From a virus, in IMG/VR virus record IMGVR_UViG_3300030451_001422, positions 1 to 31,471 of that record: DNA of 31,471 bases; one strand, 5' to 3'. Below are positions 8,328-30,603 of this stretch, one piece after another. The notes beneath the pieces were generated by a model, which was not told the origin of the DNA, did not search any database, and worked only from the letters and a program-made list of their open reading frames with translations. Each line of letters opens with the position of its first letter. Positions within the stretch are counted from its first letter, which is position 1. A program made the position numbers and the translations under genes.

Positions 8328-9914
8328 TTATATTTTTTGTCCAGTAATCCAACTTACTGCTCTAGATGCAACGCTTTTCTCTTTATTTAACATTCTTTCT
8401 TCGAATTTATCTCTATCTACAGCGTTACTTTTTGGAGGCTTTGCTGTTGTTACAGCATACCATAAACCATCAAGAAGGTCGTCGTTTCTACCTTTTGGAA
8501 ACTCATACATTTCATCTACTATTTCTTGATGTTCTTTTTTGATGTAAAGCTTTCTACCATTTACAATAGGACATAGTAGTGCTTCTAGTCTGTCTTCTTT
8601 TTTAATACCACCAGGTGGCCTAACACCTTGAGACAATCCAGGTGCTAGTTTTCTATCTTTACCTGCTAACTTATTAACATGGTCTTTAATTAATCCTTGT
8701 GCTCCAACTTTTTCTACATTCACCCTTCTAACTGGGTGATATTTTCTAGCAATGTCTATAATTTGTTTTGGCATATCATATAAAGGAGAATGTTCTCTAT
8801 AGTAATCAATTAAATATATATTTCTTTCACTATCTATTCCGATAGTTACAATCACTTGATAGTCGCTTTTTGCATTTGCTTCATAAGCTAAGTCTACTCC
8901 CATATATACATTTACTGGTATAGCAGCCTCATCTATCATCATATAATTAAAACCATTTCTATTTTCCAAGTATCCTCTATAGTTATGTATTCTATCTATT
9001 AAGAACTTAGCATTTTCTACATCTCTTGCTTCATTTAAATATTCTTGTGCAAATTTATGAACAAGACCCATGTCTGTGAATCTGCTTTTAATATCAAGAA
9101 GTTTTTCTTTTGTAAAATAATTTGGCCATAAAGGTATTCCATCTAATATGGCCTTCTTATACATAACAGCCCAGGCTGATTTTCTATTATCTTTCTGAGC
9201 GTCTAACCAGCCGTCGTAAACTCCCTGCAGGAATGAATCGTAATGGACTATTGTACCAATAAGCCATATGGAACCTTCGTTTTCTTTGGAGTTTTCTAGA
9301 GCGGGTTCTACTGTGGACATTACCCATTCTTTAATTTCCTTTCTTCTATCTGGTGTTTTTGTATTTAACTCTGACTCAAAGTCATCAAGTATAATATTAG
9401 TATAACGTAATCCCAACTGCGAACGTCCACGCAATCTTTGAGATGTACCTTTTGCAATAATTCTATCTCCTCTAGCTGTAGTAAATTCTTTTTCTGTCCA
9501 CTTACTACCTTTTAAGTCACCAAAATAATATTGTAAAGCAGGATTCATATCAATATGGTTTTGTATATATTTAATATGGTCAATAGCCTGTGACTGTTCT
9601 TCAGATACCCAAGCAATAAATTGTTTTTTCTCTGGAGGTGCAAAATACAACTGATATAACAATGCCGTTTTTGCAAGAGTTGATTTAGCATGACCTCTAG
9701 GCAATATAATGCAGACTCTTTTTTCATCGCCTAGTAACAGGTCACTTAGCTCGTATTGGTATGGAGCAGGGCTAGATTTCATAAAATCTTCTGGTAAAAA
9801 CATTTGACCAAAAGTTATTATGTCTTTTCTAGCTAATTCTAATGCTTTTTCTTTCTGATTTAAATCAGGAGGTATAATATTAAATTGCTGGGGTTTGTTC
9901 GAATTTTTTTTCAT
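8328..9914 (-). CDS. terL: Terminase large subunit, 528 aa
   Basis: This is the DNA-packaging motor. The ATPase domain shows Walker A LPRGHAKST (residues 71-79), Walker B IILDDFE (174-180) and the GTSQRLRGRS motif (156-165) typical of this family. The C-terminal RNase H-like nuclease domain starts near VYMGVDLAYE, with Asp 341 as its first metal ligand, and later NDDLLDGLWYAV supplies another conserved Asp pair. The length is normal. The gene overlaps the upstream cyclotransferase-like gene by 35 bases. The ribosome site is weak (AGGG close to ATG), so an alternative start a few codons away is possible. The call itself is secure. Confidence 0.95.
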   Translation of the reverse strand: MKKNSNKPQQFNIIPPDLNQKEKALELARKDIITFGQMFLPEDFMKSSPAPYQYELSDLLLGDEKRVCIILPRGHAKSTLAKTALLYQLYFAPPEKKQFIAWVSEEQSQAIDHIKYIQNHIDMNPALQYYFGDLKGSKWTEKEFTTARGDRIIAKGTSQRLRGRSQLGLRYTNIILDDFESELNTKTPDRRKEIKEWVMSTVEPALENSKENEGSIWLIGTIVHYDSFLQGVYDGWLDAQKDNRKSAWAVMYKKAILDGIPLWPNYFTKEKLLDIKSRFTDMGLVHKFAQEYLNEARDVENAKFLIDRIHNYRGYLENRNGFNYMMIDEAAIPVNVYMGVDLAYEANAKSDYQVIVTIGIDSERNIYLIDYYREHSPLYDMPKQIIDIARKYHPVRRVNVEKVGAQGLIKDHVNKLAGKDRKLAPGLSQGVRPPGGIKKEDRLEALLCPIVNGRKLYIKKEHQEIVDEMYEFPKGRNDDLLDGLWYAVTTAKPPKSNAVDRDKFEERMLNKEKSVASRAVSWITGQKI

Positions 9915-10284
9915 ATACCCTATCTAGCATAATTAATGTTTTCATAGAATGCCAATCTCCATCTGGCACTTCTGTAAAAGTTTTAGACTTGTCCCACAAC
10001 TTAGGACCAGCGACATAAATCCAAGCTTTTTCAGTATCTCCGTTATCTAGCTCTACATTTACTGTTGTTCTAATGTATAAACCTCCATCAACGTTTTCAT
10101 ATTCGTCATACATATTAAGTTCTTCATCAGTTACGTCTATAAGCTCTACAACAGCTCCTTTACCTTTTTCATTCTTAATAATAGCAGGAAATGATTGTGT
10201 TCCAGGGAATACCAAGCTAAAACCTTCTATTTTACCTTTGTCTGGATAATCTCTTCTTAATGTTCCATATACAGCTAATCTCAT
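9880..10284 (-). CDS. Gamma-glutamylcyclotransferase / AIG2-like protein, 134 aa
   Basis: The family fold is recognisable from VYGTLRR at residues 5-11 (the glycine/nucleotide-like loop of the GGCT fold) and from DEYENVDGGLYIR, where Glu 63 matches the catalytic glutamate of D-x-Y-E. The usual AWIYVAG strand follows. Known GGCT enzymes cyclise a gamma-glutamyl group to 5-oxoproline and release the amine, or act on gamma-glutamylamines (BtrG, GGACT). Comparative-genomic work on amidoligases linked AIG2-like proteins with GS-fold amidoligases and class II amidotransferases, both encoded elsewhere in this window. Here the gene is wedged between a zinc ribbon (ATGA overlap) and terL. Its substrate is unknown. 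Confidence 0.8.
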   Translation of the reverse strand: MRLAVYGTLRRDYPDKGKIEGFSLVFPGTQSFPAIIKNEKGKGAVVELIDVTDEELNMYDEYENVDGGLYIRTTVNVELDNGDTEKAWIYVAGPKLWDKSKTFTEVPDGDWHSMKTLIMLDRVYEKKFEQTPAI

Positions 10285-10508
10285 GAATATCCTACCTCTC
10301 TTACTATACCTAAGTCAGTTATTTCAAAATCAGTATCATACATAGTCAAACAATTAATACATTTTAATCTATTTGTATCTTTTGTTTTAATATCCCAAAT
10401 ATATACTGCAGTTTTTCTTAAATGGTATGAACAGATGTGACAGCGCTTATTTCTCGCGTGTGACTTTAACTTCTTCCAGTTTTTTGACTTCTTTCCCTTG
10501 AATTGCAT
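10281..10508 (-). CDS. Zinc-ribbon protein overlapping terS, 75 aa
   Basis: Two CxxC knuckles, CHIC (residues 23-26) and CINC (50-53), separated by 23 residues, form a probable four-cysteine zinc ribbon. The N-terminus is very basic (KGKKSKNWKKLKSHARNKR). The start at 10508 is supported by an AGGAG seven bases upstream, although it lies 62 bases inside the small terminase gene, so the last part of terS is read in two frames. The stop overlaps the next gene by ATGA. A packaging or DNA-binding accessory role is possible. Confidence 0.7.
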   Translation of the reverse strand: MQFKGKKSKNWKKLKSHARNKRCHICSYHLRKTAVYIWDIKTKDTNRLKCINCLTMYDTDFEITDLGIVREVGYS

Positions 10509-11202
10509 TTAGTTGCTCCTTCGTAAATCCTTGGAACAATGTTACAGATTCTGTTTGTTTTTCTGTATCCATCATACCAGAAAGTTTCATTAATGTTGTT
10601 ATAGCAGTAAGTTTATCTCTATCAGATGTACCACCTTTATCTATTATATCACGCATTTCTTCTAATAGATATAAAGGTGTAATCTCTGCTTCTGCTAAAT
10701 ATTTATCTATTTCTTCTCTAATCAATTTTTTCACCCTATCAGTTTTTAATAATAGTTTTGCTTGTGATTTAGCATAATCTTCTTTTTTACTAGGAAAAGC
10801 TTTCATATATGCTTCAACCACATCATCTCCTTTTGCTACGTACTTGCTAAACAAAAATTCTTTTTCTGTTGCGTGTTTACGTTCTTTCTTTCTAACAGAA
10901 GGAGATTTACCTTCAGTTGAAAAGGTGTGCATGTTTGTTCTCATTGGGCCATCCATATTAACTTTGTCGGAGCATATAAAAGAACCTATGATAGTTCTTA
11001 TAAACGTGGTTTCTTTTTTAGATTTTCTAAGAATACCTAAATGTAAAACCTGACAAACGTTTCCGTCATCCGTTAAAACCCAATCACCTGTATTTGAATG
11101 TCTCCAATCAGTAACTAAAGAAACACCACTATGATGTTCTCTAAACTCAGATTCACTCTCGTAAAGGTAGTGTGTCACACCTTTAACAACTCTTTCTAAC
11201 AT
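10447..11202 (-). CDS. terS: Terminase small subunit with extra N-terminal domain, 251 aa
   Basis: The C-terminal half (about residues 105-215) has the helix-turn-helix and oligomerisation look of small terminases: KEFLFSKYVAKGDDVVEAYMKAFP, then AKLLLKTDRVKKLIREEIDKYL and a later helix pair EEMRDIIDKGG...KLTAITTLMKLSGM. The order small before large terminase supports it, with a zinc ribbon and a cyclotransferase-like gene between the two. Residues 1-100 form an additional beta-rich domain with DWVLTDDGNVCQVLHLG and YxRTIIGSF-like strands, not needed in most TerS proteins. Function: recognises viral DNA and hands it to TerL. The very end is overlapped by the next gene in another frame. Confidence 0.8.
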   Translation of the reverse strand: MLERVVKGVTHYLYESESEFREHHSGVSLVTDWRHSNTGDWVLTDDGNVCQVLHLGILRKSKKETTFIRTIIGSFICSDKVNMDGPMRTNMHTFSTEGKSPSVRKKERKHATEKEFLFSKYVAKGDDVVEAYMKAFPSKKEDYAKSQAKLLLKTDRVKKLIREEIDKYLAEAEITPLYLLEEMRDIIDKGGTSDRDKLTAITTLMKLSGMMDTEKQTESVTLFQGFTKEQLNAIQGKEVKKLEEVKVTREK

Positions 11203-12389: not shown

Positions 12390-12571
12390 TTCTTAGGAAA
12401 ATCCTCCATATCTGGCCTGTCTTCCTGGTCTCTAAGTACTTTTTCGTACCTTTTCCAGTCTAGGTTCTTACTTATCTTTTCAAGAGCATCTAATTCTTGC
12501 TGTAATTTCTGAACAATGTCAGTTCTACCTAGACTTTTGAATTTTAAGATTGCTTTTCTGATTTCTTCCAC
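12386..12571 (-). CDS. Small hypothetical helical protein with GTG start, 61 aa
   Basis: The start is GTG at 12569-12571, supported by TAGGAG seven bases before it; no ATG is nearer. The product is charged and helical (RKAILKFKSLGRTDIVQKLQ...DWKRYEKVLRDQ), with no known motif. It overlaps the metallopeptidase gene by 28 bases and the MazG-like gene by four. It is supported by coupling and the ribosome site; function is unknown. Confidence 0.55.
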   Translation of the reverse strand: MEEIRKAILKFKSLGRTDIVQKLQQELDALEKISKNLDWKRYEKVLRDQEDRPDMEDFPKK

Positions 12572-12843
12572 AGATAATCTCCTATTCCTAGTTGAAATAA
12601 ACCATTACTTATAGCTTCTATCTGCCTTTCATCGTGTTCTAAGCCAGTATTATAGAAAATGGCGTGTAAAACCTCGTGAATTAGTGTTTCTTGCATTCTA
12701 GATGCTGCTATTTCATCGTTTATGTAAATAATATTCTCTTTTACTTCGTGTCTACCGTATAATTCTTTACGTGGGTTTTCGTGTTTAAGCTCGTCAACCA
12801 GTATTTCATACGTATGTCCACCTATATTTAGTTTTCTTATCAT
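12544..12843 (-). CDS. Zincin-like metallopeptidase, 99 aa
   Basis: The HExxH zinc motif is present as HEVLH at residues 56-60, within ETLIHEVLHAIFYNTG, and Glu 69 or Glu 76 could be the third ligand. The preceding strand YINDEI fits the minimal zincin core of phage ImmA-like or SprT-like peptidases. It is the first gene of the minus-strand arm, with a strong GGGAGGG before the ATG, so it may be expressed early. A target such as a host protein or a phage precursor is not indicated by the sequence. Confidence 0.7.
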   Translation of the reverse strand: MIRKLNIGGHTYEILVDELKHENPRKELYGRHEVKENIIYINDEIAASRMQETLIHEVLHAIFYNTGLEHDERQIEAISNGLFQLGIGDYLWKKSEKQS

Positions 12844-13773: not shown

Positions 13774-13860
13774 AATTATACATAACATTTATTATATTCA
13801 ATTAATTATACATAATCCTTATTATGCTTAATCAATTATACATAATATATATTATACTTA
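13774..13860. repeat. Three iteron-like 27-bp repeats at exact 30-bp period
   Basis: Units at 13774-13800, 13804-13830 and 13834-13860 all begin AATTATACATAA and continue with a TATTAT-type right half. The 3-bp spacers keep an exact 30-bp period. The right half of each unit mirrors the left, so each can form a dyad. Confidence 0.85.
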
Positions 13861-13972
13861 AATCATCAAAAAAATATATATATCCTTATATAAACCTTAG
13901 CTGAATCTTTTTTAAAATTTCAATGTTTTTTTAGTTTGGCTAGATTATAGACGCATTTTTAAATATAGGGGT

Positions 13973-13999
13973 AGTTATACATAATATATATTATACGCA
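13973..13999. repeat. Fourth iteron-like copy
   Basis: This unit shares a 22-base identical core with the third copy. It lies in the second copy of a larger module, preceded by TAGACGCATTTTTAA (13948-13962) and followed by the same 23-base element (14036-14058) that follows the first set. Confidence 0.85.
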
Positions 14000-15820: not shown

Positions 15821-16981
15821 ATGTGTGGAATATATGGAATGGCTAAGAGCCAACGACCTTATACCAAAGAAGACTGGGATGAAGTCAGACGCATTATGCG
15901 TATGATGGCTATGGACTCTGAAGTCCGTGGAGCCCACTCGTCTGGTATTGCAGGCGTCGGTAATCAAGCTACGATACATAAATCACTACTAGAAAGCTCA
16001 AGGTTCGTCGATACCAAAGAATACAATTCAGTAATCAAAGGTCTACGTAATGACGTCAATATTATTATTGGACATACTAGATTTGCGACTGCAGGTAGTA
16101 TTACTAAGGAAAATGCACACCCATTTAGAGTAGGCAACGTCGTTGGCGCTCATAATGGTTGCGTATATAATATAGACGAAATGGAAAAGAAGTTAGATAA
16201 AAATTGTCCCGTCGATAGCCAATTAATATTTAAGGCATTAGACTTAAACGACGATTTTCAATCTGCAATTAGAAATTTCGACAGCGACTTTGCCTTAGCT
16301 TATGTCAAAGATAATCCTAATGTCTTAAACTTATGTCGTGAAACTAATAGACCTTTATATGTTGCTTACGTTAAACATTTACAGACTCTGTTTTTTGCGT
16401 CAGAACAAGACTTCGTCGAACAACCTCTGTTTTTATTTACAGAGTTAGACGAAAAAGACATTAACGTCGTTAAACTAAATAGAAATAATCTATATAGCTA
16501 CGACATAAATAACTTTGACGAAGAAGGTAGTAATCCGACAAAGACTAAATTCAAATACGATTCAAGAGTCTATAGTTATGGTCTTAATAGCTACTACAAT
16601 AAGAATCTTTACTCGTTTAGTAAGACAAAGACTGCAAACTTAGACACAGACACAACGTATTCCTTTAATGGTAATACTGAGTGGGAAATGGCTAACGACT
16701 ATGCAGTTCTTCCTGACGATTGGAAAGAGAACGATTGGTACGGAGACGAACAAGAAAACCTAGCGACTATCTATGGTGGTAGTGCAGAACAATGGTTTTT
16801 CGACTCTGAAGAAGGTGTTTGGATGTATGCTACTATAGACGGCAGAATACTGCCTGAGTCTGTAATGGCTAATGTCGGACAAATGAATATGTTTAGTCCT
16901 GAAAATGACGAACTCTTAATCGACGAAACAGACGACGCAGTTGCTATGGACGTTGCGGAAGGTATAGACAATGCCTCCTGA
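15821..16981 (+). CDS. Class II glutamine amidotransferase (Ntn hydrolase), 386 aa
   Basis: The protein begins MCGIYGM, so Met removal exposes the catalytic Cys 2 of the Ntn fold. Further family motifs are RGAHSSG (residues 36-42), GHTRFATAG (84-92), NAHPF (98-102) and GAHNG (109-113), all in the order seen in GlmS/PurF-type glutaminase domains. These release ammonia from glutamine for a partner synthetase. The domain covers about residues 1-240. The remaining C-terminal part is Asn/Tyr/Asp-rich, with no partner domain, and ends in an acidic tail. The partner is almost certainly the amidoligase that overlaps the last 11 bases. AGGAG lies seven bases before the ATG. Confidence 0.9.
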   Translation: MCGIYGMAKSQRPYTKEDWDEVRRIMRMMAMDSEVRGAHSSGIAGVGNQATIHKSLLESSRFVDTKEYNSVIKGLRNDVNIIIGHTRFATAGSITKENAHPFRVGNVVGAHNGCVYNIDEMEKKLDKNCPVDSQLIFKALDLNDDFQSAIRNFDSDFALAYVKDNPNVLNLCRETNRPLYVAYVKHLQTLFFASEQDFVEQPLFLFTELDEKDINVVKLNRNNLYSYDINNFDEEGSNPTKTKFKYDSRVYSYGLNSYYNKNLYSFSKTKTANLDTDTTYSFNGNTEWEMANDYAVLPDDWKENDWYGDEQENLATIYGGSAEQWFFDSEEGVWMYATIDGRILPESVMANVGQMNMFSPENDELLIDETDDAVAMDVAEGIDNAS

Positions 16982-19001
16982 GTCCATAAGACGAATAGAA
17001 AGACTTTCACAAGAAGTCAACGACGCACTTAACGATGAACAACAAATCATTGAAGAGTGCGTCAATTGTGGTTGTAGCGTCGATGAGTATGAAGTCAGAC
17101 ACAACAATGACGACGAAGTCTATTGTGAAGGGTGTTATGATGACAACTACTTTAGTTGTGCAGACTGCGGAGAAGAAACAGACGAAGCAGACCAACACTC
17201 TAACGATAGTGGAGCGTCTATATGTCCTGATTGTTTTGAAGACAACTACGACTATTGTGATGGTTGCGACGAAACTCTACATAGAGACGATATGATATGG
17301 AACGACTCAAGAGGAGCCTATATGTGTGAATCTTGCGACGATGAACATAGTGGCGAATTAGTAGAGTGGGAAGTAATGAGCAATAGCTACGTACAAACAA
17401 GGACAGACTTTCTTACTCCGACGAACTCAGGTTATAGTATGCATAATGGTAGACTTATCAAGCAAACAGACCCTGAGATGATGACTAACGAACATAGGTT
17501 TAAGTCTAAAGCTAAGAAGTGGATGAAAGACTCTCACGACATAATTAAAAGTAAACGTTATGTCGGCTTAGAGTTGGAAGTCAACTTAGACGAAACTTAC
17601 TATGACTACGATTCTGACATCTACGACGATATACATTATTGTTTGACTAGTAGAATTGCTCAGTCTAGACACGTTTTGTCTGGAATAACTCGTAAGTACC
17701 CTTACTATCAACAAGGGAACTTTGGCTTTAACGTCGTTGGAGATTCGTCTGTGACTAGTGGCAATCATCCACATGGATGTGAAGTCGTTACTGGTCCTAG
17801 ACGTGGAGATATCATAGACGCAGATATACGTACTATATGTAAAGCTCTTAAAGATGACGCACACGCTTATATAAGCAGTAATTGTGGACTTCATATACAT
17901 ATAGACACAAGCGACTTTGACTTCAAACACTTTTCAGTCTTAACTGCACTGATTAAGTTGATAGAGCCACACGTTTATACGTGGCTTCCGTCTAGTAGAC
18001 GTAATAGTCGTTGGGCTCAACCTGTCTCTCAAGATTATGGACAACTTAGAAATGTCTATGATAGAGATGATTTCATTGAGGCTTGGTACGACGGAAATAG
18101 TTATTATCCTGAGAAGTACCACGACAAAAGATATCATGGACTTAATTTGCATAGTCATTTTTACGCTAATCAAGGGTCTGAGATTAGATATCATAGTGGT
18201 ACACTCAACGCAGACAAAATCAAACATTGGGTCGTATTTTGGACACAAGTCTTTGATACTGCGTATGAGATAGGACAGGGTATAGACAATGGACTATCAG
18301 GGTCTAATTTCTACGAAACTTTACTACATCAAGACAAACTTAAACTCTCAGACAGAGAAAGACAAGTGTTGTCAAGATATGAAAGACACGAAGAAACACT
18401 TACAGACTACAGAAAAGTTAAGTCTGACCCTGAACTACATATACTATATCGTAAGTTAAGGGACTATCATAGACTAAGTACAGATGTAAGTCTGTATGCT
18501 ATTGTCTATGGGTACCATTACTTAAACCCTTGGTATGCACGACAAGACAAATGCTTGACGTTTGATAGTATGATGGACTTATTTGACATACCAAAGTCTA
18601 CAAGAGATTTCTATTACAATAGATACTACAATAGACGTAATGATGAATATTTTGACCACAACCACTTAAAACGTTGTTATGGCAAAATAGACCAGTGGTA
18701 TGAATATTGTAAAGCAACAGAAACGTTTATACTTGTAGACGATACTAGAAACAGACTTGTCAAGTGGGACGAACTTGGTTGTAGACGTCCAAGAAGCAAT
18801 AGACATTGGAGATACATCTATGACGAAGCAGACGTCCAACAACACGTTTGCAGACTAGTACACGAATACGTAAATCGCAATGTTTCGTCTAGTGTACGAT
18901 ATACTCAAAGAGAGTACGACATACTAGAACAGAATAGAGAAGTGATAGGTAGACGATACTCTAGGGTAGGCGAATACTTAGAGCCTTTACCATTTGCGTA
19001 G
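16971..19001 (+). CDS. GS-fold amidoligase with three N-terminal zinc fingers, 676 aa
   Basis: Residues 195-435 match the Amidoligase_2 (COOH-NH2 ligase, glutamine-synthetase-like) family: GLELEV (199-204), GDSSVTSG...CEVVTGP (257-276), CGLHIHID (305-312) and EIRYHSGTLN (404-413), carrying the acidic and His residues of the ATP/metal site. Before it, residues 28-125 hold three treble-clef-like zinc modules with CxxC pairs at 30/33-52/55, 63/66-85/88 and 96/99-119/122, in an unusually acidic chain. The C-terminal 240 residues are helical, Tyr/Arg/Asp-rich and unrecognised. GGAAGG lies eight bases before the ATG. The enzyme should use ATP to join a carboxylate to ammonia or an amine. The tight pairing with the amidotransferase suggests ammonia or glutamine-derived nitrogen is used. 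The substrate is unknown. Confidence 0.88.
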   Translation: MPPESIRRIERLSQEVNDALNDEQQIIEECVNCGCSVDEYEVRHNNDDEVYCEGCYDDNYFSCADCGEETDEADQHSNDSGASICPDCFEDNYDYCDGCDETLHRDDMIWNDSRGAYMCESCDDEHSGELVEWEVMSNSYVQTRTDFLTPTNSGYSMHNGRLIKQTDPEMMTNEHRFKSKAKKWMKDSHDIIKSKRYVGLELEVNLDETYYDYDSDIYDDIHYCLTSRIAQSRHVLSGITRKYPYYQQGNFGFNVVGDSSVTSGNHPHGCEVVTGPRRGDIIDADIRTICKALKDDAHAYISSNCGLHIHIDTSDFDFKHFSVLTALIKLIEPHVYTWLPSSRRNSRWAQPVSQDYGQLRNVYDRDDFIEAWYDGNSYYPEKYHDKRYHGLNLHSHFYANQGSEIRYHSGTLNADKIKHWVVFWTQVFDTAYEIGQGIDNGLSGSNFYETLLHQDKLKLSDRERQVLSRYERHEETLTDYRKVKSDPELHILYRKLRDYHRLSTDVSLYAIVYGYHYLNPWYARQDKCLTFDSMMDLFDIPKSTRDFYYNRYYNRRNDEYFDHNHLKRCYGKIDQWYEYCKATETFILVDDTRNRLVKWDELGCRRPRSNRHWRYIYDEADVQQHVCRLVHEYVNRNVSSSVRYTQREYDILEQNREVIGRRYSRVGEYLEPLPFA

Positions 19002-26091: not shown

Positions 26092-29000
26092 CTACGGTTT
26101 AAATTCTTTCTCTTCTTGCTGTTTTTTAATTCTGTCTAAAAGTTTTCTTTCTATAGTCTTCCACGAAATATCTCTTTGAGATATCGCTAAAGAAGGGTAT
26201 TTGATTCCATAAACTTCATTATATCCTAACATAATTCTTTCTGCTTGCTTTGGTTTGTTTTCTAAAAGAGCATTTCTTATATCCTCAACAGCAGTCTTTT
26301 TATAATATTCGACTCTATCTCTTTTCATACCTTCTGTTTGTAGACCTGGAGTAAGCTTAAAAGACTTATCAATTAAACCTTCTTCCATAAAAGGAAGTCT
26401 GGTCAAAGGTTCTAGGTCAACACCTATACCAGTTCTAGCCATTCTAGAAATGTTAGGACCAAATATAGGAGCTAAAGTGTTAAATCCTTTTCTGAAAGGA
26501 ACGTCCCACTGTTCAGGATAATGTGTTTCCATACTTCTAGCAAACGTTTCAAAAGACTTTATCACTCTCTCAAAGTCGTCAACTACAACTGGTTTTACAA
26601 AGAATTTTATAGAAGTTAAAGGTTCATCTCCACCGACTATGTCTCCCAAGACACCAAAAGAACCTACGCTTGTCAATGCATTTATATAGTCTTGCCACTC
26701 AGGAGTACGTAGCATTTTCATTCTACTTTCTTTAGATGTATATTGCTCTTCTCCAGTTATTGCAGCATTAAGTTGGTCTTTAGCCCACATAACTAAATTA
26801 CCTCCAGCAAAACCTCCTATACCTAGACGTAAAACAGGAAGTAAGTTTCCATGCTTTACTTCATTTTGTATAGTTTGATTTATATACTGAGCTTGTCTTA
26901 ATCCAAATCTTTTAAACAAAAGTAAAGGTTTTAACATAGGGTCATTAAACATAATAGGGTCTCTTAAGAAGTTTCTTTGTAGCTGAGTATCTGAAGCAAA
27001 TTTTTTCATACCTAACAAAAGTCTTCTTCTAAATTGTTGCTCTGAAGCTGATTCAAATACTCCGCTTTCTAAAGCTTTTAAGTTCTTTACTAGGTCATCT
27101 GGGTCTAAACCTAAAGCCTCAGCTTTAGCTTTAGCCCACGCTAATCTTTTATTTTTAGCCCAACCAGGAACCATTGTAGTCAAAAAATCTTTTTTACCAG
27201 AAAGTATTCTACCATATTTTTTAGCCGCCTCTTCAGCAGTAGCTGCAGCGATAACCTGGTTCCAAGAGTTAACTGTAGAGAATAAAACAGATGTCTTTCT
27301 TGTTGCAAAAGCAATAGCATCTTTAGACTTCACTTCTCCCTTAAGCCAGTCTTTTACAAACTGTCTTATAGGAGCTTCTGTCTTTAATTTTTCAGCAGCA
27401 CCAATTTGCAAAGCTCTATCTTGCTGCATTAAGTCGTCAAAGGCAGTTAAAATTGTAGCACCACTTTCACGCACTCTTTTTCTAAAACCTGAGTCTATTC
27501 CCATTCTAACTAAGCCTTTAAACATAGAACCAAACCCTTGGTCTACAGAAGTAGAAATAAATGACTGTGTTAAATTAGGAATAAAAGCTTGACCTAAAGA
27601 TATCTTACTCATCATCTCAAGGTTAGATAAAGACTGCAAAGACTCTGACATAGGATTTTTAACTCTAAAATTATATTCTCCAGTAAAACTTTCTTTTATT
27701 AAGTTGACAGCAGCAACCTGTGTTTGTTGAGAAAAAGGCAAGAATTGACCACCTAAACTCTTAGGGAATCTACCACCGTCCAATTCTAAATCACCGTCTG
27801 CCATTTTTATAAGTTGATTGTAATATGCTCCTGTAGGAGTAAATGCTTTAGAAAGCTCAATTCTTTTTGTAGCACCTCCTATATATTCAGCCATAATTTT
27901 TGTATAATTAGTTTCCATATAATTTTCAAAAGCATTTGCAACAAGCTTAGAGACATCTCCTGAACCTATACTGCTGTTAGCTATTTTTCTGGATTTTTCA
28001 AGAGGACTGAACTCTTTTAAACTACCAGAAAATAAGTTTTGGTGTAGAACTCTAAAAACATTATAGTTCTTAGGAACACCAGCAGATGATTCTTTGTTAG
28101 CTAAAAGGTCCCAAATCTGTTTAAACACAACAGCATCAGGCTTAGAAGAGCCTTCCATTTTTCTAATGATACCCTGTAACATACCTTCCAGTCTTTCAAG
28201 GACGTCAGGTCTGTATTGTCCGTCTATGTTAAAGTCTCCTCCTGTAATCTTCATAATCTTTTTTTCCATAGATTCCATTTGGTCAAACATAATATCTAAA
28301 ACATCTTTTCTAAACATTCTAGGAAGATAACCATTAATTTTTTGCCCTACTCTTAGATTTGCTTTCTTAGCATCTGCCCAAACAGAGTCAATGGATTTTG
28401 TTTTAGAGTTGTAAACACCGCTAGTAGTAAGTTCATCAGAAGCTTCTAGAAAGTTTGCTCTTGCTAAAAGTCTTTCTTTTTCACTTCCTGTAAGTCTGTC
28501 TGCTTGCCTTCTTAAATCTCTAAGATACAGTCTAAAACCTTTTCCTGGATTATCTGCTTCAAAATTTTGTATTGTTTTAAAATCTTTAAAGGCTGTTTGT
28601 TCTCCTGTTCCATCTAAATATGTTTTCCACCAATTAGAATGTGCCTTTTCAAAAGAAATTTTAGGCTTTATTATAGCATCTAACCTATTTAATCTTTCTG
28701 CAGTTTTTTGCTCAGTCGAGTTCGCAACATTTTGAATAAGTCTAGTAGCTTTTCTAAGATAAGGGTCTGTTATATGATAATAAAATGGAGTTATAAAACT
28801 TCTAATAATACCTCTTTTAGAATTACTCATGAAGTGAGGTTGATACATATAATTAATATCGTAGTCAGGTAAGTTAGTTTTTATAAAATGTCTTACCTCA
28901 ACCTGATTTTCCATCATCTTTGCCATTAACTTCTTTTCAGACAATGTCATATCTTTTATTCTTACTGGCTTACCGTCTGCTATAGATTTTTCCCAACGTT

Positions 29001-30603
29001 TAAACAATGTTTTACCTATTCTTTTTCCAGTGTCTGGGTCTATAGCGTCATCCATATATCTGTTCATAGTGCTTATAACAGAGTTCATCCAGTCTTCTGG
29101 CTTATATCCGTCTTCGCCTTTAATAGACTTTTCTCTTATAGACCTAATTCTTTGGTCATAATGTAAGTCTAAAGCATTTTTACTGTTTCTAACACCCTTA
29201 AGATTTTTCTCAAACATTGCAATAAGTTTAGGGTCTTCAGAGTGGAATTTAAAAAACAACTCGGTGTTAAATTCATCTAGTAAAAATTGTCCTTTACCTT
29301 CTACGTTTATAGCAACAGTCAAACCTTTATCTGTCTGTCTTACACTCTTGTCTACAATTTTACCTGTTGTAAAAGCTAAAGTACTTTTGTGAGAGTCAAT
29401 TGTAATTTTTTCATCAACCTGACCTTTAATCTTACCAGTAACAACCTTTGCTCCTTCAATAGAAGCTTCTCCACCTCTAATCCTACGTCCCATTAAGTTA
29501 ATATGAGCATATTCTCCTCTACCAATCTTAAAGACATTTTCTCTTCTGTATCTTTGTCCAGCTTCTTTTATGTCTTTTGTTCTTGCAAAAGGTTGTTGTA
29601 TTTGCTCATAAAGCTCTGCACCTTCTGCTGTAAATATATCTTGTAGTTTAGCTTCACTTGCAATTGCTTGATTATGTTGTTTTGTAAGTTCGTCTCTAAT
29701 TCTACCTTTTCTTTTAGCAACTAAAGATGCTGGTGCAGCTACAGCTCCTGCAACTCCAGCAGCCATAATTAAGTCTTGAAATCCAGGTATTCTACCCTCG
29801 TAAGCCAAAGGAGATAAAGCTCCTATGGTAAATGTTTCTCCAGTAAAAGCTCTGATACCTCTTTTGTAAGCTTCTCTTGCTTCTTTTCCATCTGAGAAAG
29901 GCGCAAGCAATCTTGATGTTCTACCAACACCTCCTGCTAAACCTAAAAATCCTCCTCTAAAAAAATCTTTAGCATCTCCTTTTTTCAATACATCTTTAAA
30001 CGCTTGACCATAATCCATTCCTTTGTAATTCGATAAATCTGCTTTATCCAATATTTCATCTCTTGCTTCTTTTGCTGCGTAATAAAAACCGTCATATGTA
30101 CCTAGCATAGCTGCCTGCACACCACCGTAGTTTACAACATCATCTACTATAGAAGTTGCATTTCTAATCCCTAAAGCTTTGCCTTTATATTGAAGTTTTT
30201 TACCTAACATTACAGCAGCACGTCTTTTTGCTGCAGTTGTAACACCAGCTCTTAATACAGCACTAGCAGTTCCAGCACTTGCTACACTTAAACCAAAGTC
30301 TGTCTTTGATGCGAAAAATGATAAAAAACCTGCACCAATATCATGAATAACACCTCTTGGTATGTCAGCAATTTCATAATACTTTTTACCTGTCATCATC
30401 TCATGCATCATACCTTCTATAGATTTATTGTATGCATCTTTATAGACTACTGGCATTGAATCCCAAAAAGCATTTCTTTCTCTTTCTCTTTGGTCATTGT
30501 TTTCAGGTTCCATGACATATGGACTAACCATGTTTTTAAGATTGCCTGTTGGCTCTGCTTGTGTGGCAACTTGTTGTGATTTAAATCTATCTCTTAGACT
30601 CAT
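26092..30603 (-). CDS. Giant putative internal virion/ejection protein, 1503 aa
   Basis: A 1,503-residue reading frame with no interruption. The N-terminal 300 residues contain Ala/Gly-rich, weakly hydrophobic helices (GAGFLSFFASKTDFGLSVASAG; GGFLGLAGGVG; LIMAAGVAGAVAAPASLVAK). The middle is Lys/Glu-rich and helical with no repeat. The C-terminal part has FGLRQAQYINQ, LRLGIGGFAGGNLVMWAKDQ and further conserved-looking helices. This resembles large internal core or ejection proteins of podoviruses and the tail ends of polyvalent phage proteins, with no recognisable enzyme motif. It lacks the repeated Trp/Phe pattern or coiled coil of a tape measure. Confidence 0.65.
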   Translation of the reverse strand: MSLRDRFKSQQVATQAEPTGNLKNMVSPYVMEPENNDQRERERNAFWDSMPVVYKDAYNKSIEGMMHEMMTGKKYYEIADIPRGVIHDIGAGFLSFFASKTDFGLSVASAGTASAVLRAGVTTAAKRRAAVMLGKKLQYKGKALGIRNATSIVDDVVNYGGVQAAMLGTYDGFYYAAKEARDEILDKADLSNYKGMDYGQAFKDVLKKGDAKDFFRGGFLGLAGGVGRTSRLLAPFSDGKEAREAYKRGIRAFTGETFTIGALSPLAYEGRIPGFQDLIMAAGVAGAVAAPASLVAKRKGRIRDELTKQHNQAIASEAKLQDIFTAEGAELYEQIQQPFARTKDIKEAGQRYRRENVFKIGRGEYAHINLMGRRIRGGEASIEGAKVVTGKIKGQVDEKITIDSHKSTLAFTTGKIVDKSVRQTDKGLTVAINVEGKGQFLLDEFNTELFFKFHSEDPKLIAMFEKNLKGVRNSKNALDLHYDQRIRSIREKSIKGEDGYKPEDWMNSVISTMNRYMDDAIDPDTGKRIGKTLFKRWEKSIADGKPVRIKDMTLSEKKLMAKMMENQVEVRHFIKTNLPDYDINYMYQPHFMSNSKRGIIRSFITPFYYHITDPYLRKATRLIQNVANSTEQKTAERLNRLDAIIKPKISFEKAHSNWWKTYLDGTGEQTAFKDFKTIQNFEADNPGKGFRLYLRDLRRQADRLTGSEKERLLARANFLEASDELTTSGVYNSKTKSIDSVWADAKKANLRVGQKINGYLPRMFRKDVLDIMFDQMESMEKKIMKITGGDFNIDGQYRPDVLERLEGMLQGIIRKMEGSSKPDAVVFKQIWDLLANKESSAGVPKNYNVFRVLHQNLFSGSLKEFSPLEKSRKIANSSIGSGDVSKLVANAFENYMETNYTKIMAEYIGGATKRIELSKAFTPTGAYYNQLIKMADGDLELDGGRFPKSLGGQFLPFSQQTQVAAVNLIKESFTGEYNFRVKNPMSESLQSLSNLEMMSKISLGQAFIPNLTQSFISTSVDQGFGSMFKGLVRMGIDSGFRKRVRESGATILTAFDDLMQQDRALQIGAAEKLKTEAPIRQFVKDWLKGEVKSKDAIAFATRKTSVLFSTVNSWNQVIAAATAEEAAKKYGRILSGKKDFLTTMVPGWAKNKRLAWAKAKAEALGLDPDDLVKNLKALESGVFESASEQQFRRRLLLGMKKFASDTQLQRNFLRDPIMFNDPMLKPLLLFKRFGLRQAQYINQTIQNEVKHGNLLPVLRLGIGGFAGGNLVMWAKDQLNAAITGEEQYTSKESRMKMLRTPEWQDYINALTSVGSFGVLGDIVGGDEPLTSIKFFVKPVVVDDFERVIKSFETFARSMETHYPEQWDVPFRKGFNTLAPIFGPNISRMARTGIGVDLEPLTRLPFMEEGLIDKSFKLTPGLQTEGMKRDRVEYYKKTAVEDIRNALLENKPKQAERIMLGYNEVYGIKYPSLAISQRDISWKTIERKLLDRIKKQQEEKEFKP

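Follow-up and report, generated by a model that had tools for sequence, protein, structure and literature searches.

The DNA analysed here (the window) is a viral stretch of 31,471 bases with 34.8% GC that makes up the whole of its IMG/VR record and carries two divergent arms. According to the profile matches of its proteins, an SU10-type major capsid protein, the portal and the terminases are encoded on the minus strand, in a packaging arm that also holds a DNA-polymerase-type exonuclease, while the plus-strand arm includes a PD-(D/E)XK nuclease and a DnaB helicase. The genes of a glutamine amidotransferase (GAT) and of an amidoligase (AL) with overlapping reading frames are located among the replication-type genes. 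A third gene, coding for a cyclotransferase (GGCT), is found on the opposite strand at a distance of about 5.5 kb, placed between those of the terminase small (TerS) and large (TerL) subunits and overlapping the TerL start by 35 bases (Table 1). The frequency of sigma-70 promoter matches at about 12.8-19.7 kb was not above that of shuffled sequences, and operon starts therefore cannot be placed. The gap between the arms contains AT-rich repeats of 30 bases (a tandem run of three plus another, partial, copy), possibly corresponding to an origin or control region.

Table 1. Features of the window discussed in the text.
Feature	Position	Strand	Basis or remark
TerL, terminase large subunit	8328-9914	-	downstream neighbour of GGCT
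GGCT, gamma-glutamyl(amine) cyclotransferase (PF06094, GGACT/AIG2-like), 134 aa	9880-10284	-	Pfam, motifs
75-aa CxxC protein between TerS and GGCT	10281-10508	-	kept in close relatives
TerS, terminase small subunit	10447-11202	-	upstream neighbour of GGCT
Metallopeptidase-like protein, 99 aa, at the start of the minus-strand arm	12544-12843		HExxH; SprT/M78-like, below cut-off
AT-rich repeats between the arms	13774-13996
GAT, class II (Ntn) glutamine amidotransferase, 386 aa	15821-16981	+	Pfam, motifs, model
GAT/AL reading-frame overlap, 11 bases	16971-16981	+
AL, Amidoligase_2 (GS/GCS fold), 676 aa	16971-19001	+	Pfam, motifs, model
1503-aa protein, possibly a virion or ejected protein	26092-30603	-	no PHROG match, no Pfam match over cut-off

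The initial annotation had read the extent of the GAT/AL overlap, the position of GGCT and a series of catalytic motifs from the DNA, all of which were confirmed. GAT carries Cys2, GHTRFATAG, NAHPF and HNG, matches GATase_6 (PF13522) with 55 bits against a cut-off of 27, and has the catalytic set of class II enzymes, that is, an N-terminal Cys after the Met, an Arg, an Asn-Gly and an Asp, with C2, R87, N98, N112, G113 and D132 being invariant in an alignment of 36 sequences. In its AlphaFold model (mean pLDDT 74.7) the glutaminase domain extends approximately from residue 2 to 240 and matches that of GlmS (1xff; Foldseek E 1.3e-13), the C-terminal part being modelled with low confidence. NCBIfam returned for GAT only scores far under the GlmS, PurF and AsnB cut-offs, and gave no name to AL or GGCT.

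AL contains GLELEV, CEVVTGP, CGLHIHID and GTLN and reaches 89 bits with Amidoligase_2 (PF12224; cut-off 22), a profile matched by none of 14 cellular controls. The ExE, HxHxD and ExR motifs are invariant in the aligned proteins, including E201, E203, E271, H308, H310, E404 and R406 (n=43). Cys-rich modules at residues 30-122 are followed by a GS-fold core at about 195-440 and by a C-terminal extension of about 235 extra residues. In the AlphaFold model (mean pLDDT 78.4) the core aligned with YbdK over 251 residues (VIA Z 13.7, rmsd 4.5, model range 130-564) and with glutamine synthetases at a Z of about 13, in a comparison that, for rows outside 156-564 of the model, is a weak test of the zinc and C-terminal parts. 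GGCT scores 60 bits with GGACT (PF06094; cut-off 22.8), and its YGTLR (residues 6-10) and catalytic Glu (E63) are invariant in 29 sequences. When its profile was compared with solved structures, gamma-glutamylamine cyclotransferase (GGACT, A2LD1) ranked first as its best solved relative (2kl2, 1vkb, 3jub), the alignment covering residues 17-81 only. GGACT acts on gamma-glutamyl-epsilon-lysine. The enzyme assignments originally proposed are thus borne out by Pfam scores over the cut-offs, by invariant catalytic residues and by the modelled folds, GAT corresponding to a GlmS glutaminase with its Ntn Cys and AL to the YbdK/GS fold. Chance matches are ruled out by the scores, the invariant active sites and the synteny.

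The three genes were present in each of the first six relatives. A scan with a GAT profile retrieved 79 loci, 39 of them records of the window's own clade, in which AL and GGCT were each found in 38. The record lacking AL is a contig that stops right after GAT (G032), and the one lacking GGCT begins 2.6 kb before GAT (G017). Every one of the 63 locus entries with both genes (the window is counted among them, and some contigs were entered twice) has GAT next to AL in the same orientation, with overlap in 57. Within the clade GGCT always lies about 5-8 kb from this pair on the opposite strand, adjoining TerL and between TerS and TerL. Loci were also selected by TerL, a marker outside the trio. 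GGCT is encoded in 76 of these 80 loci, the other four beginning inside or just before TerL. Among the 16 loci that extend 9 kb or more upstream of TerL, 15 have the GAT-AL pair and the remaining one an AL cut by the contig end. The trio are core genes of the clade, which means that common descent could explain their co-occurrence in it as well as functional linkage could. Two of the loci (L229 and L233) lie on one 80-kb contig (IMGVR_UViG_3300030708_000851) with two different TerL genes, 86% and 83% identical to the query, which may join two phage genomes.

The named-phage searches found no close cultured phage of this clade. Only three named phages were matched by GGCT in tblastn, and the capsid protein search gave three, all distant, for which reason the clade is taken to have no close cultured member. 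A scan of prokaryote genome contigs with TerL, aimed at the host, found no relative.

Evidence of another kind comes from distant phages. In 15 named phages chosen by AL, GAT or GGCT matches, AL was present in all, GGCT in 13 and GAT in 11. The Geobacillus GR1, Bacillus 031MP004 and Faecalimonas phages encode AL and GGCT and no GAT, the two genes being near a terminase gene in the last, and GGCT adjoins AL in the unrelated phages Waltz, UFV-P2, Geobacillus GR1 and Faecalimonas. This recurring association, in varied arrangements and in different phages, speaks for a shared pathway centred on AL. The proposal that GGCT belongs with the GAT-AL pair is therefore upheld, since the three genes are present together in every relative whose contig is of sufficient length, and also in independent lineages of phages.

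The opposite possibility, that GGCT belongs independently to the packaging block and the functional unit is formed by GAT and AL only, is unlikely. It would account for the distance and the strand separating GGCT from the pair, and for its constant position against TerL. Moreover, Porphyromonas and Klebsiella phages encode AL without detectable PF06094. A further argument is provided by a close relative (L002; 98% identical to the window in TerL, 97% in GAT and 86% in AL) in which GGCT (L002:3046-3309, minus strand) has a clean in-frame deletion of 46 aa, removing residues that are invariant elsewhere and most of the GGCT fold and sparing the part that overlaps TerL. This suggests that GGCT activity was lost in one relative, where the protein may be dispensable if the deletion is not an assembly error; and because GAT and AL are kept intact in this genome, the GGCT step would not be strictly required. 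What this explanation does not predict is the repeated GGCT-AL adjacency in unrelated phages, which is not expected by chance. It was also suggested initially that GGCT acts later than GAT and AL. This is possible, and agrees with the conservation of its terminase-block position across the clade; against it stand the exonuclease of the packaging arm and the loss of most of the GGCT fold in L002.

In the N-terminal part of AL, the twelve near-invariant Cys of residues 30-122 are predicted to form LIM/ZZ-like zinc-finger-like modules. Among the closest genomes, dN/dS (omega) is 0.16-0.28 for AL, about 0.10-0.19 for GAT and 0.03-0.05 for TerL, the zinc module, residues 441-500 and the tail being the fastest-changing parts of AL. 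The pattern would fit a recognition surface, yet one under purifying selection, with omega well below 1. All 30 AL matches in named phages fall within query residues 230-493, none being in the zinc part, and when viral contigs were scanned again with an AL profile, only the same close relatives came up. In one relative the GAT terminates in a zinc-like, Cys-rich module (L007:9473-9685) similar to the N-terminal part of the AL with which it is paired. At L269:1-2755 the order is AL followed by GAT, with about 190 extra N-terminal residues in AL and a terminal CxxC ribbon in GAT, as in the GATs of Omnitrophota.

Pairs of a zinc-module AL and a GAT were identified on conjugative/integrative elements of Candidatus Omnitrophota (L293-L300). 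Like those of the window, they combine a Cys-rich N-terminus and GS core in AL with a neighbouring class II GAT; they differ in that AL precedes GAT and in having neither GGCT, another point in favour of an independent GGCT, nor TerL. They are linked to genes for a TraG/TraD coupling protein, replication-relaxation and RadC. In one of them, a patatin phospholipase and a DncV-like nucleotidyltransferase (CBASS-like) are encoded 2 kb from the pair (L296:10209-12501). An Elusimicrobia contig (JAGWUP010000007.1; L301, L302) has two AL and GAT pairs about 18 kb apart. A match in Acinetobacter MD-2021a (L292) was dropped as glmS among bacterial genes.

These features invite the idea of protein tagging, in which the zinc modules of AL would dock on a host or phage protein whose side-chain carboxylates or amines would be amidated or gamma-glutamylated with ammonia from GAT, GGCT trimming the product. 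The near-invariant Cys, the faster evolution of AL relative to GAT and TerL and the sharing of the pair with conjugative elements speak for it, but the AL omega is still far under 1, the ALs of Waltz, CW02 and UFV-P2 are short, as opposed to the long protein of the window, the matches in named phages lie outside the zinc part, and there is no sign of modified virion proteins; we consider it improbable. Its extension to a mobile-element system for protein modification, common to the phage clade and the conjugative elements, with a host-protein target and the packaging-arm GGCT as eraser, is a speculative reading with little probability. As to tagging of the capsid, which the initial annotation had put forward, no specific support was found. 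Homologous ORFs of phage PaP3 peak at 10-30 min and are middle genes by time course (PMC4707531), and the SU10 GAT was classed among early products (PMC4281155). Together with the location of the pair among replication genes, this timing favours the host, in the course of infection, rather than the capsid as the target.

The explanation that we favour, with somewhat better than even confidence, is that of a reduced three-enzyme phage amidoligase module acting on glutamate-type carboxylates, most likely of the cell wall. The chemistry of the three proteins is predicted from well-known families, and the complex, the ammonia transfer and the order of action are inferred. GAT, with its Cys2 nucleophile exposed by loss of Met1, would release ammonia from glutamine. 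AL, produced from the overlapping gene and probably complexed with GAT, would spend ATP on turning a glutamate-type (gamma) carboxylate into an acyl phosphate, which it would then join to the ammonia or to another amine, giving an amide or isopeptide. GGCT would take gamma-glutamyl groups off amines as 5-oxoproline, thereby editing or reversing the linkages. The likeliest acceptor would be the cell wall of the host, in the form of stem peptides or precursors of its peptidoglycan, during phage replication, a change that could exclude competing phages or resist lysins. This target is a literature hypothesis, published as wall modification against superinfection (PMC5498523, PMC10580990, PMC11945000) and put first here with modest confidence; the literature searched yielded no tests of phage amidoligase module function. 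Two points tell against the wall: the clade lacks the ATP-grasp enzyme and the second ligase to which the making of the special linkages in the wall is ascribed, and zinc modules, typical of macromolecule binding, are not obviously suited to a wall precursor.

A purely metabolic role, rewiring glutamine, glutamate or gamma-glutamyl metabolites (for example to supply nitrogen or glutamate to the phage) with no macromolecular target, is quite unlikely. Small gamma-glutamyl compounds are substrates of the GGCT family, and an eLife study of Phage-ZRK32 interpreted this gene set as auxiliary genes of nitrogen metabolism; however, the growth effect of this phage was not tied to them (PMC10945688), and a dedicated GAT with a long zinc-bearing AL would be an odd substitute for host GS and GGT. 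The position of GAT in the arm with DNA replication genes also brings to mind hypermodification of DNA bases with GAT as ammonia donor, as in the Gat-QueC archaeosine phages. Class II GATs serve as ammonia donors in dG+ phages. The dG+ phage 9g has been described (PMC5567051). Such a role is very improbable here, as the window proteins that were scanned include no recognisable QueC, TGT, base hydroxylase or nucleotide kinase. A known defence system was discarded, with PADLOC matching none of the three proteins.

As the initial annotation stated, the families had been linked before, and the same gene set is described in phage papers (PMC5498523, PMC11945000, PMC3890496, PMC10945688). The observation is sound and its earlier interpretation partly supported. 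Amidoligase modules of phages have appeared in annotations for more than fifteen years. This large clade, with just three of the parts in all genomes sampled, shows that ATP-grasp and the second ligase are dispensable and that GAT, AL and usually GGCT are retained. The three-gene form offers biochemistry a small, reconstitutable set, with the zinc modules as a handle for target fishing.

Among solved proteins, YbdK and gamma-glutamyl-cysteine-ligase-like carboxylate-amine ligases, together with glutamine synthetase, appear from the model to share the fold of AL and its ATP-dependent amide-forming chemistry, whereas AL differs by an identity of about 12%, by its extra zinc and C-terminal parts and by its partner GAT. 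Genes 94-96 of Arthrobacter phage Waltz, already annotated as gamma-glutamylamine cyclotransferase, amidoligase and glutamine amidotransferase, represent the same three families, equally with no ATP-grasp match, but form one contiguous GGCT-AL-GAT cluster with an AL of 338 aa in which only Amidoligase_2 is recognised. The peptidoglycan modification cassette of LUZ24/RIO-1/phiEco32/CW02-like phages (e.g., UFV-P2, PSA-HP1), which lies outside the structural genes and near the replication genes (PMC3890496, PMC5498523, PMC11945000), likewise contains GAT, Amidoligase_2 and GGCT. It differs in keeping GGCT inside the cluster and in having, besides, a COOH-NH2 ligase (PF14395) and an ATP-grasp protein (phrog_2599), the former being added in UFV-P2, CW02 and QDWS535 and the ATP-grasp family being matched in UFV-P2 and CW02. 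PF14395 was found in none of the 39 clade records nor among the window proteins scanned, as against seven of nine distant GAT records, and phrog_2599 was absent from the window and from 31 clade records (possibly incomplete), as against its presence in six of six cassette phages. The set is therefore real and not new, being a reduced form of the known amidoligase/GAT/ATP-grasp/GGCT cassette; what is new is the absence of the ATP-grasp protein and of the second ligase, the location of GGCT in the packaging arm and the fast-evolving zinc modules carried by AL.
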